Origin: Planctomycetota bacterium
GTDB lineage: Bacteria > Planctomycetota > UBA1135 > UBA2386
Direction: 5' to 3'
Length of the DNA: 64,000 nt
Assembly (NCBI GenBank): GCA_016794425.1
Contig: JAEUHR010000023.1
Location: 62,001-126,000, forward strand
Shown here: positions 58,228-62,012 of the stretch, piece by piece
Layout: each line of letters begins with the position of its first letter
Numbering within the stretch: the stretch's first letter is position 1
Position numbers and translations under genes: made by a program
The notes under the pieces: generated by a model
What the model was told of the DNA's origin: nothing
The model's input: the letters and a program-made list of their open reading frames with translations, nothing else
The model's database searches: none

Positions 58228-58983
58228 TCAGGCCTCGGCCAGTGCCAGCTGCACCGCGTCGACGACCGCGGCGACACCCTGGGCCGACGTGTCGACGACG
58301 ACGTCGGCCTCGCGGTAGAACGGCTCGCGCTCGCCGAGGATGCGCCGCAGGTCGCCGAACGCCTGTTCGTTGTCGGCCATCGGCCGCAGATCGCCCTGCT
58401 GCAGCACGCGCTGCCAGTGGTCCTCCGGCGTCGCGCGCAGCCAGACCGTGCGGGCCGCGCGGCGCAGCAGTGCGAAGCTCTGCGGGTCGGTGACGATGCC
58501 GCCCGACGCCGCGATCACGCTCGGCGCGCCGGCGAGCTGGCGCAGCAGCGCCTGCCGCTCGGTGCTGCGGTAGTAGGCCTCGCCGTGCAGCTGGAAGATC
58601 TCGCCGAGCCGCATGCCCGACACCGCCTCGATGCAGGCGTCGAGTTCGACGAACGGGCGGCCGAGCCGTTCGGCCAGCAGCGGCCCGATCGTGCTCTTGC
58701 CGGCGCCACGCAGACCGAGCAGGGCTACGTGCCGCCGGCCGGGTGCCGCGGCGTCGCCGGCGAGCAGTTCGGTCAGTTCGAGTTCGAACGCCTGCGCCAG
58801 GGTCCACAGCCGCAGCAGCGACGGGTTGGCGGCGCCGGTCTCGACGTCGGCGAGGAAGCGTTCGCTGATCCCGGTGCGCCGCGCCAGATCGCGGCGGCTC
58901 CAGCCGCGGTCCTTGCGCAGCGTACGGACCCGGGCCCCGAGCCGCGCCAGCAACGGGTGCGCGTGGCTCAGAAGAAGTACCAC
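58228..58983 (-). CDS. XRE-type HTH domain fused to shikimate kinase-like domain (BoxR-like)
   Basis: 251 residues. An XRE helix-turn-helix (about 13-72: VRTLRKDRGWSRRDLARRTG then LADVETGAANPS) precedes a shikimate-kinase fold with P-loop GLRGAGKS (90-97), FVELDACIE and ASGGIVTD. This fusion is known from BoxR/BenR-type regulators, where the kinase fold senses benzoyl-CoA, but no such catabolic genes are nearby. It may be a regulator, an active AroK, or both. The GTG at 58983 overlaps the kelch gene by 16 bp; a later start is possible. Confidence 0.85.
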   Translation of the reverse strand: MVLLLSHAHPLLARLGARVRTLRKDRGWSRRDLARRTGISERFLADVETGAANPSLLRLWTLAQAFELELTELLAGDAAAPGRRHVALLGLRGAGKSTIGPLLAERLGRPFVELDACIEAVSGMRLGEIFQLHGEAYYRSTERQALLRQLAGAPSVIAASGGIVTDPQSFALLRRAARTVWLRATPEDHWQRVLQQGDLRPMADNEQAFGDLRRILGEREPFYREADVVVDTSAQGVAAVVDAVQLALAEA

Positions 58984-60512
58984 TCCGTGCTGTTGGTGAT
59001 CTGGCCGCCGAGCGACGAGCCGCCGAACAACTGGATCTGGCCCTGCGGCGTCGCGAACGCCGCGGCGCCGGCGCGCGGGAACACCATCGGCGGCCCGGCC
59101 GAGAAGGTGTTGCTCACGGTCGAGAACACTTCGGTCGACTGCAGCGGCGTCGGGAACAGGATCGAACCGGCGGCGCCGCCCGCGACCAGGAACGTGTTCG
59201 GGCCGAGCCGCCACGCCTTGTGGTTGCCGCGCGCGGCGGCCATCGGGCCGACCGTGGTCCAGGTGTTGGCGACCGCGTCGTAGATCTCGGCGGTCGCCGT
59301 CGGCGTGCCGAGGTTGGCCAGCGTCAGCGAACCGATGCCGCCGGCCAGCAGCCAGCGGTCGTTGCCGAGCGGCAGCGCGTCGATCATCGACCGCGCGTTG
59401 GCCATCGTCGGGCCCGGCGCCATCGTGTTGGTCACCGGGTCGTAGAGGTTCGTCGACGCCCGCACGGCCGGCAGCCAGCCGATCACGATCACCGGGTCCC
59501 AGCTGATGCCACCGGCGAGCAGCACCTTGCCGTCGGGCCGCGGGATCGCGATGTGGCCCGCGCGCGGCGTCGACAGCACCGGCCCCGGCGACCACGTGTC
59601 GGTGGCCGGGTCGTAGAGCTCGGTCAGGTTGGTCGCATCGCGCACCGCCGACAGCTGCGTCGGCGTGACCGTCAGCGCGACCAGGCCGCCGGTGACCAGC
59701 ACCTTGCCGTTGCCGAGCAGCGTCGCCGTGTGCCCCATGCGCGGCGACAGCATCGGCGTGACCGCCGTCATCGTGTCGGCGACCGGATCGTAGATCTCGC
59801 ACGCGGCCTGCGGGTCGTTGTTGGTGCCGACGCCGCCGGCCAGCAGCCAGGTGCCGTTCGGCAATCGCGTGGCCGTGTGCAGCGAGCGTTGCACGGTCAT
59901 CGACGGCCCGGCCGTGAACTGGTCCGTGGCGGGGTCGTAGATCTCGGTCGACTGCAGCGCGATCTGCGACAGCAGGCCGCCGCCACCACCGCCGGCCAGC
60001 AGCCAGCGACGGTCGGCGCGCGGCAGCACGGTGCCGAACGCGCGGCCGGCCATCGATCCGGTGCCGCGGTCGCGGAACGCCGCCGCCGGCGCGAACCAGA
60101 CCACGTTCGGGTTGCTGACGCGATCGAACAGGGTCGGCGTGAACTGCAACGTCAGGGCCTGCAGGTGCAGTTTGGTGTCGTTCAGCGAGGGATCGAGTCC
60201 CAGCGGCACGTCGATGCGGCAGTGGCCGTCGGCGCCGGTGACGCCGAAGAACAGCAGATCGAGCAGGTCGATGCCGACGTCGAGCACGCGCGTGTCGAGC
60301 GGATCGATCCAGGCCAGCGGCGTCGGCCCCGTGTTGCCCGACGGCACCACCAGCACGATGTCGAACGGGTGCGCCTCCGGCCAGACGTCGAACGACAGCA
60401 CGCCGGGCATCGACGCCCCGGTCGCATCGAGTTGCAGGGCCTGGGCCGTGACGGGAGCGGCAACGGACACGATGGCGCACGCGGCGGCGCGCAGCGGGTG
60501 GATGGCGAACAT
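58968..60512 (-). CDS. Secreted kelch-repeat beta-propeller protein
   Basis: 514 residues with a signal peptide (about 1-24, APVTAQ). Residues 25-150 form the beta-rich domain shared with two other secreted proteins in the window, here at the N-terminus. Kelch units follow: STEIYDPATDQFTAGPSM, ACEIYDPVADTM, LTELYDPATDTWSPGP, STNLYDPVTNTM, TAEIYDAVANTWTTVGPM and STEVFSTVSNTF, each ending in a LLAGG-like strand. The final residues NSTEWYFF match the first strand of a unit, suggesting a closed seven-bladed ring. A GGAGG ribosome site precedes the ATG. Function: probably glycan or surface binding; no galactose-oxidase Tyr-Cys site was identified. Confidence 0.85.
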   Translation of the reverse strand: MFAIHPLRAAACAIVSVAAPVTAQALQLDATGASMPGVLSFDVWPEAHPFDIVLVVPSGNTGPTPLAWIDPLDTRVLDVGIDLLDLLFFGVTGADGHCRIDVPLGLDPSLNDTKLHLQALTLQFTPTLFDRVSNPNVVWFAPAAAFRDRGTGSMAGRAFGTVLPRADRRWLLAGGGGGGLLSQIALQSTEIYDPATDQFTAGPSMTVQRSLHTATRLPNGTWLLAGGVGTNNDPQAACEIYDPVADTMTAVTPMLSPRMGHTATLLGNGKVLVTGGLVALTVTPTQLSAVRDATNLTELYDPATDTWSPGPVLSTPRAGHIAIPRPDGKVLLAGGISWDPVIVIGWLPAVRASTNLYDPVTNTMAPGPTMANARSMIDALPLGNDRWLLAGGIGSLTLANLGTPTATAEIYDAVANTWTTVGPMAAARGNHKAWRLGPNTFLVAGGAAGSILFPTPLQSTEVFSTVSNTFSAGPPMVFPRAGAAAFATPQGQIQLFGGSSLGGQITNSTEWYFF

Positions 60513-60615: not shown

Positions 60616-60644
60616 TTGCCTCGAAGCGGGCGGCACAGTCTACT
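60616..60644 (+). promoter_or_regulatory. Putative promoter of the structured leader (TTGCCT-17-TCTACT)
   Basis: TTGCCT (60616-60621) and TCTACT (60639-60644) with a 17-bp spacer; each matches four of six consensus bases. Transcription would begin near 60651. The reverse strand of the same site reads TAGACT, so it may serve the kelch gene instead. Confidence 0.35.
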
Positions 60645-60650
60645 CCTCCG

Positions 60651-60852
60651 CCTCCCGCGCCGACCTCGGCGCGGACGTCGTACAGCTCTCTGCTCTGCGC
60701 TGGACCGAGACCTGGGCGGCTGGCGGCGCCTTTCGCCAGGCGTCGTCGAGCCAACGGTCCTGGCCAGGTTCCTCTCCATGCCCGCAAGGGCGCCTGGCCG
60801 AGGTGTAGAACCAGAGGTCCGGTCGGTGGCTTCGGCCACCGGCCGGATTTTT
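60651..60852 (+). ncRNA. Candidate structured leader / attenuator RNA upstream of pduO
   Basis: The 379-bp gap between the kelch and adenosyltransferase genes holds no coding-like ORF but several helices on the plus strand: CTGGCG/CGCCAG (60720-60725 with 60734-60739), GGCCAGG/CCTGGCC (60762-60768 with 60793-60799) enclosing GCCC-GCAA-GGGC (60780-60791), and a long-range ACCTCGGC/GCCGAGGT (60663-60670 with 60797-60804). CTGGACC (60700-60706) can pair with GGTCCGG (60816-60822), which would break the base of the terminator stem. This is the pattern of an antiterminator and terminator. No known riboswitch consensus fits. Confidence 0.4.
60819..60852 (+). terminator. Intrinsic terminator with UUCG tetraloop
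   Basis: CCGGTCGGTGGC (60819-60830), loop TTCG, GCCACCGGCCGG (60835-60846), then ATTTTT. The 12-bp stem has one G-U pair. It lies 39 nt upstream of the adenosyltransferase start, so it would stop transcripts entering that gene unless it is melted. Confidence 0.8.
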
Positions 60853-60891
60853 CTCCGCGCGACGGCGAACGGATGCACCCCACGGCAGCTG

Positions 60892-61446
60892 ATGCCCATC
60901 TACACCGGAACCGGTGACGACGGCGAGACCGGCCTGTTCGGCAACCGCCGCGTGCCGAAGGACCACGAACGCATCGAGGCCTACGGCACGATCGACGAGT
61001 TGAACTCGCTGGTCGGCCTGCTGCGCGCCGAACCGATCGACGCCGGCTGGGACGCGGAGCTGAAGACGGTCCAGGACGAGCTGTTCGAACTCGGCGCCGA
61101 CCTGGCCACCGAAGGCGGCGCGGCGTCTTTGCCGCGCATCGAACCGGCGGTCGAGCGCCTCGAGCGCTGGATCGACGCCTCCGAGCGCGAATTGCCGCCG
61201 CTGCACTCGTTCGTGCTGCCCGGCGGCTGCCGCGCCGCCGCGCTGCTGCACGTGCTGCGCACCGTGGCGCGGCGTGCCGAGCGGCGGTTCTGGCACCTGT
61301 CGCGCGCCGTCGGCGACGCGCCCGGCCAACGCGTGCCGCCCGTGATCGGCATCTACCTGAACCGCCTGTCCGACCTGCTGTTCAGCTGGGCGCGCCGCGC
61401 CAACCGCCGCGCCGGCGTCGCCGACGTGCCCTGGTCACGCCAGTGA
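60892..61446 (+). CDS. pduO: PduO-type ATP:cob(I)alamin adenosyltransferase
   Basis: 184 residues. The enzyme makes adenosylcobalamin from cob(I)alamin and ATP. Family motifs: YTGTGDDGETGLFGNRRVPK at the ATP-binding N-terminus, ERIEAYGTIDELNS, LPGGCRAAALLHVLRTVARRAER split in the middle helices, and the C-terminal YLNRLSDLLFSWARRANR. Length and motifs match the PduO/MMAB trimeric type. ATG 60892 begins the conserved MPIYTGTGD. A hairpin terminator sits just upstream, so expression may be controlled by attenuation. Confidence 0.94.
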   Translation: MPIYTGTGDDGETGLFGNRRVPKDHERIEAYGTIDELNSLVGLLRAEPIDAGWDAELKTVQDELFELGADLATEGGAASLPRIEPAVERLERWIDASERELPPLHSFVLPGGCRAAALLHVLRTVARRAERRFWHLSRAVGDAPGQRVPPVIGIYLNRLSDLLFSWARRANRRAGVADVPWSRQ

Positions 61447-61581: not shown

Positions 61582-61618
61582 CCGTCTGATCGGCTCGCGC
61601 AGCGAGCCGATCAGACGG
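61582..61618. terminator. Perfect 17-bp inverted repeat overlapping the yjbR-like stop codon
   Basis: CCGTCTGATCGGCTCGC (61582-61598) and its exact complement GCGAGCCGATCAGACGG (61602-61618) flank a GCA loop. It lies between convergent genes and includes the TGA of the minus-strand gene. There is no T-run on either side, so it may be a bidirectional terminator lacking a U-tract, an mRNA 3' stabiliser, or a protein-binding site. Confidence 0.6.
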
Positions 61619-61934
61619 GCCCGGCGGCCGTGCGGCCGAGGCGGCACGCGCGGCGCAGCCACATCATCGCCCGCTCGACTTCCCGCGGGCCGGTGACCGG
61701 GATCTCGACGAACTCGCGCGAGTGCGGGTCGCCGTCGTCGGGCATGCGCTTGGCGCCCAGGATCTTCAGGGCTTCGGTGACCTGCGGCGGCGCGAGCTTG
61801 ACGACCACGCCCTTCTTGCCCAGGTACGCAAACACCTGCCCGCGCACGAAGAAGCTGTCCTTGCCGTCCTTCTTCTCGCGGTTGACGTCCTTCCAGGCGC
61901 AAAGGCGCTCGACAATGGTGGCAAGTGGATCCAT
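61611..61934 (-). CDS. MmcQ/YjbR or TfoX-N-like small protein
   Basis: 107 residues. A compact alpha/beta protein with FFVRGQVFAYLGKKGVVVKL in the middle, then PDDGDPHSREFVEIPV and a C-terminal helix ERAMMWLRRACRLG. This fits the MmcQ/YjbR or TfoX N-terminal fold, thought to bind DNA through a CyaY-like surface, but the similarity is modest. In-frame starts exist upstream (61948, 61982); 61934 is preferred because TATGCT ends 10 nt before it, as for other genes here. The last codons lie in a perfect inverted repeat. Confidence 0.7.
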   Translation of the reverse strand: MDPLATIVERLCAWKDVNREKKDGKDSFFVRGQVFAYLGKKGVVVKLAPPQVTEALKILGAKRMPDDGDPHSREFVEIPVTGPREVERAMMWLRRACRLGRTAAGPV

Positions 61935-61944
61935 GGGGGCAAAC

Positions 61945-61950
61945 AGCATA
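61945..61950 (-). promoter_or_regulatory. Putative -10 element (TATGCT) of the yjbR-like gene
   Basis: TTGGTATGCTGTTTG on the minus strand, ending 10 nt before ATG 61934. An alternative ATG (61948) lies inside the element itself. Confidence 0.4.
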
Positions 61951-62012
61951 CCAAGAACGGGGAACGGCCGCCACAGGGGCAACGCCGATTGCCCGTTCCG
62001 GCACGCCCGGTC

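Follow-up and report, generated by a model that had tools for sequence, protein, structure and literature searches.

A conserved structured RNA upstream of pduO in one Planctomycetota family, probably a new lineage-specific small RNA

The described systems that come closest to the RNA reported here are 6S RNA, the cobalamin riboswitch, and terminator-controlled riboswitches. 6S RNA resembles it in being a small RNA of ~200 nt that precedes a gene of cofactor metabolism, as in Escherichia coli, where ssrS lies before ygfA. However, 6S RNA is rod-shaped, and its central bubble mimics an open promoter, while the RNA described here is branched, with two arms. The cobalamin riboswitch is likewise a structured RNA upstream of a cobalamin-metabolism gene, but our RNA has no match to its model and no conserved switch involving the terminator. 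With terminator-controlled riboswitches in general, it shares a promoter, a structured domain with invariant unpaired nucleotides, an intrinsic terminator, and a gene. In contrast to these, it has no antiterminator, its closing stem (P1) coexists with the terminator, and it was once found without the gene.

The RNA lies in the window, i.e., the whole 64-kb stretch of planctomycetal DNA that was analyzed, directly before a gene on the plus strand (60892..61446). The first-pass annotation had correctly recognized this gene as pduO, encoding a PduO-type cob(I)alamin adenosyltransferase (PF01923, E 5e-58; TIGR00636). Upstream of the RNA, a gene for a kelch-repeat protein (58971-60512) is on the minus strand, divergent from the RNA. 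This protein is probably secreted, and in the compared genomes its gene is a conserved neighbor of pduO or of the RNA. Also next to pduO is a gene on the minus strand (61614-61982) for a 123-aa protein, which has no match in Pfam or NCBIfam and is 86-98% identical across genera, compared to 64-74% for pduO.

Both ends of the putative transcript can be read from the sequence. The promoter proposed by the first-pass annotation, TTGCCT (60616-60621) and TCTACT (60639-60644) with a 17-nt spacer, is present on the plus strand at 60616..60644; a strict consensus scan does not flag it. Most other copies have promoter-like TTG... and -10-like hexamers at a similar place, such as TTGACT-16-AATACT in G027 and TTGACT-16-GATACT in G030. 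Just after the inferred transcription start, a possible 5' hairpin, P0 (CCGCGCCG-ACCT-CGGCGCGG; 60655..60674, plus strand), can be drawn in most relatives. Its fold has a z of -2.9 in the window and a mean z of -1.0 over 16 copies, which is suggestive, if weakly so, of a conserved element. At the 3' end, the intrinsic terminator (60819..60852, plus strand) is as annotated. It consists of a 12-bp hairpin, one pair of which is G-U, formed by stem CCGGTCGGTGGC (60819-60830), a TTCG (UUCG) loop (60831-60834), and arm GCCACCGGCCGG (60835-60846), and it is followed by ATTTTT (60847-60852), 39 nt before the pduO ATG (60892). Nearly all copies show a strong hairpin immediately 3' of P1, most of them with a T-run, which is weak in G008 and G021 and, in G008, degenerate. 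Since only 39 nt separate the RNA from the co-directional pduO in the window, the terminator must influence pduO.

As for the intervening sequence, the nested helices and GNRA-capped hairpin proposed earlier are present, and compensatory changes in relatives support the fold. Segment 60640-60860 has a folding energy of -124 kcal/mol; 200 dinucleotide shuffles give -99.3 +/- 4.4 kcal/mol, and not one of them folds as low (z -5.67). A first structural alignment of 12 copies, made by hand, yielded five helices with 43 pairs, and the final alignment comprises 14 copies, the diverged G019 and G024 having been added. Surplus bases in inserts were removed and absent ones were entered as N. Automatic alignments were dropped because unoriented loci were misleading and MAFFT misplaced P4, hence the alignment by hand. 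Since such a hand-fitted alignment leans towards structure, slid and shuffled controls matter. In the five-helix model, 95.3% of the cells are paired over the 14 copies, compared to 36-43% in slid controls. Double changes occur in 23 of the 43 pairs, vs 11.0 +/- 2.3 in shuffles, and the covariation score is 0.42, vs 0.19 in shuffles (none as high) and 0.05-0.09 in slid registers. In addition, the first model retrieved copies outside its training set in G008, G019, G021, and G024, each directly upstream of pduO, which is independent support for the RNA family.

The core of the RNA (60682..60817, plus strand) is a closing stem, P1, bearing two arms, P2/P3 and P4/P5. It is matched by covariance model R2 (131 positions, five helices, 43 pairs) with 106 bits and an E of 1.5e-25, the window being part of the training set. 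In P1, a 5' strand (TCTCTG, CT, CTGCGC; 60687..60700) pairs with a 3' strand (GTGTAG, AAC, CAGAGG; 60803..60817), giving 12 pairs in the alignment, 4 of which show double changes, with 95% of cells paired. The 5' strand of P2 (TGGACCG, 60701..60707) has its partner at 60755-60761, with double changes in three pairs. P3 (60718..60752) is a hairpin of 14 pairs, 8 with double changes, and has a conserved YTCGCC loop. The second arm (60762..60799) comprises P4 (GGCCAGG/CCTGGCC) and P5, a GNRA hairpin that reads GCCC-GCAA-GGGC in the window (60780-60791); double changes affect five of the six pairs in P4 and three of the four in P5, with 96-99% of cells paired. All these elements are on the plus strand. 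An alternative pairing of CCTGGGCG with CGCCAGG, which would join J2/3 to the P3 loop, was rejected because its middle pair is U-U in G011 and G017, where the P3 pair is kept (U-A to A-U).

The RNA was found only in the family of the window. A DNA search of 100 relatives returned copies 73-80% identical over ~180 nt. A covariance-model search of relatives, as proposed in the first-pass annotation, revealed the RNA in 16 of the 34 genomes of the family, each with a single copy (model R2), and two further pieces cut by contig ends (G028 and G033). No convincing copy was found outside the family, in 154 order- and class-level genomes in all or in a 392-genome sample of the phylum. Weak matches in G074 and G484 (E 0.004-0.01) were attributed to chance, the G074 region (L048) resembling coding sequence. 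The RNA is conserved and covarying in relatives, and it matches no Rfam family: Rfam 15 gave no match to it in the window (gathering and relaxed thresholds, E<=10) or in eight relatives (E<=1), the only results in the window being a tRNA elsewhere and chance-level matches. We found no report of the RNA in the literature. This is, almost certainly, a real and previously undescribed RNA family.

Could it nevertheless be a divergent member of a known family, whether 6S RNA, the cobalamin riboswitch, or another in Rfam? Its size of ~200 nt and its own promoter and terminator are reminiscent of 6S RNA, while the pduO neighborhood points to cobalamin. However, the 6S model (RF00013) leaves it unmatched in the window and in eight relatives, and its branched fold is unlike the rod of 6S RNA. 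The cobalamin riboswitch model (RF00174), whose consensus the first-pass annotation had already judged a misfit, does not match it either, in the window (gathering threshold or E<=10) or in eight relatives (E<=1). The same genomes have matches to both models at other loci, which argues that the RNA is neither. Canonical cobalamin riboswitches are found elsewhere in these genomes, including three copies at other loci of the window's own genome. We therefore consider membership of a known family very improbable and largely refuted. The 6S matches are full-length candidates scoring 30-42 bits (Rfam cut-off 46.4) at other loci in half of the family genomes (17 of 34; e.g., L127 and L129); they are possibly a lineage-specific form of 6S RNA missed by Rfam.

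Among the best-conserved positions of the RNA are unpaired ones, in ACCUGGGC (between P2 and P3), in the YUCGCC loop of P3, and in CCUCUCCA (within P4). In the window, junction J2/3 reads AGACCTGGGC (60708..60717, plus strand); it is nearly invariant, and its CTGGGC is the same in all 14 aligned copies. The C/U-rich segment within P4, CCTCTCCA (60771..60778, plus strand), is kept in most copies, even in the diverged G024 and G019, is partly changed in G002, and is absent in G001. Such segments call for more than passive structure, and this speaks against a structured leader that would only lower or protect the pduO transcript through partial termination and would neither sense anything nor act in trans. 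That reading would fit with the loss of the RNA in several relatives that keep pduO and with the lack of a demonstrated partner, but it also has to face the retention of the RNA in G017 after separation from pduO (see below), and we regard it as improbable.

Invariant unpaired nucleotides are also what would be expected of an aptamer. This brings in a second alternative, a cis-acting attenuator of a new class, in which the core would bind a metabolite (cobalamin or other) or a protein and thereby set read-through of the terminator into pduO. The first-pass annotation had seen here the layout of a metabolite-sensing leader, with CTGGACC as antiterminator. This segment (60700-60706) can indeed pair in 7 of 7 positions with GGTCCGG (60816-60822), at the base of the terminator, in the window. 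However, only 3-5 of the 7 pairs can form in this register in relatives, and other registers, with up to 6 of 7 pairs in certain copies, are not common to all. CTGGACC is mostly the 5' strand of P2 and covaries with CGGTCC further down; P2 keeps 6-7 of its 7 pairs in nearly all copies (4 in G011; G021 was not scored). Moreover, when each transcript was refolded with the 3' arm of the terminator removed, no alternative partner common to the copies appeared, and the core was unchanged in about half of them. Since P1 ends where the terminator begins, both can form together. Refolding and the comparison of pairings across copies thus revealed no conserved structure competing with the terminator. 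On the sequences compared, the antiterminator pairing is due to chance, or is at least particular to the window, and the proposed terminator/antiterminator switch was not borne out. It is possible that the terminator is controlled otherwise, e.g., by a bound protein.

The relationship with pduO gives evidence on both sides. In favor of a cis attenuator, the RNA is located directly before pduO, and in the same direction, in 15 of the 16 complete copies, the upstream gene being divergent. There is little room in most genomes for a separate pduO promoter 3' of the terminator, and none is visible. Four genomes (G003, G010, G018, and G022) have kept pduO and the kelch gene and are missing the RNA. 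Two of these, G010 and G022, have a promoter-like TTGACT-16-GATACT (or CATACT), of the kind that precedes the RNA, directly before pduO, so that, judging from these promoters, the RNA looks as if it were an insert in the pduO leader. The pduO promoter would thus be kept in genomes without the RNA, which fits with control in cis, but the presence of pduO without the RNA in several relatives does not. Among copies, the T-run and the pduO ATG are 35 to 219 nt apart.

The exception among the 16 copies is G017, the only one of these genomes in which the RNA stands apart from pduO. Here groES, the shikimate kinase gene, the kelch gene, and the RNA still follow one another in this order, and the RNA is complete, with all its conserved parts (110 bits) and seven Ts in its T-run. 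The gene behind it is in convergent orientation, the sole pduO is on another contig, and there is no convincing co-directional gene within about 350 nt of the RNA in this one draft genome. A rearrangement break (L137) lies between the RNA and the position of pduO in relatives. Since this convergent gene is typical of the lineage, with homologues in 20 of the 34 family genomes, and the GC content is even across the break, foreign contamination is unlikely to explain this arrangement. Misassembly is possible, G017 being a single draft metagenome bin with 6% contamination.

Retention of the RNA without pduO behind it, together with a P1 that does not exclude the terminator and the lack of a conserved antiterminator, weighs against a cis attenuator, as do the canonical cobalamin riboswitches of the same genomes and the lack of a second target gene in any genome, which follows from there being one copy per genome. 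We therefore see this alternative as tentative and rather doubtful. Less probable still, in our view, is that the RNA represents a new class of riboswitch or protein-sensing leader restricted to one Planctomycetota family, which would control cobalamin adenosylation through a terminator with no classical antiterminator and whose short product may also serve as a small RNA. Cobalamin sensing, for which the neighboring gene is the sole evidence, is not supported.

The explanation that we favor, with some confidence, is a new lineage-specific small RNA of ~200 nt that heads the pduO transcription unit and acts mainly independently. Of the options raised by the first-pass annotation, a real structured RNA is upheld and an independent small RNA is preferred, while a metabolite-sensing switch layout is not supported. 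The z of the fold, the covariation, the distribution in 16 of 34 genomes, the promoter hexamers, and the terminator hairpin all support a small RNA; its independence is supported by its retention in G017, the variable spacing, and the lack of a conserved competitor of the terminator. Several points count against it: the co-directional position before pduO, the promoters in G010 and G022, the draft status of G017, and the absence of Hfq (PF17209), which has no match in any of the 34 family genomes, so that one would not expect a classical base-pairing RNA of the Hfq type. With the fold, its conservation, the promoter and terminator features, and the uncoupling from pduO in one genome as a starting point, we propose that a discrete RNA (roughly 60651-60852), with a sigma-70-type promoter and an intrinsic terminator of its own, would be transcribed. 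Its conserved unpaired segments ACCUGGGC, YUCGCC, and CCUCUCCA would be the likely contacts with a partner acted upon in trans, which may be a protein or else mRNA, whose purine-rich sites would pair with the C/U-rich patch. Because most genomes leave little space between the terminator and pduO for a separate promoter, pduO mRNA would be supplied by read-through of the terminator.

With this RNA, a phylum in which few small RNAs have been described gains a covariation-supported RNA family new to Rfam 15. Should the RNA act in trans, this would take place in a lineage lacking Hfq; should it act in cis, it would be a new control of adenosylcobalamin synthesis, alongside the canonical cobalamin riboswitches that these cells also have. 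Natural controls for both exist among the relatives, with the RNA uncoupled from pduO in one genome and pduO without the RNA in several.

Finally, G030 has a spacer of 215 nt between the terminator and pduO (L009 1677-1886), in which CTCTCCA occurs twice more, one of these within a short hairpin, and CCAAGACCTGGGC once, all of them repeating conserved unpaired segments of the RNA. Since CCTCTCCA is found only twice in the 64-kb window (chance expectation 1.4), one of these being within the RNA itself, the additional segments in G030 look as if the contact modules had been duplicated and the duplicate had then decayed or been reused.
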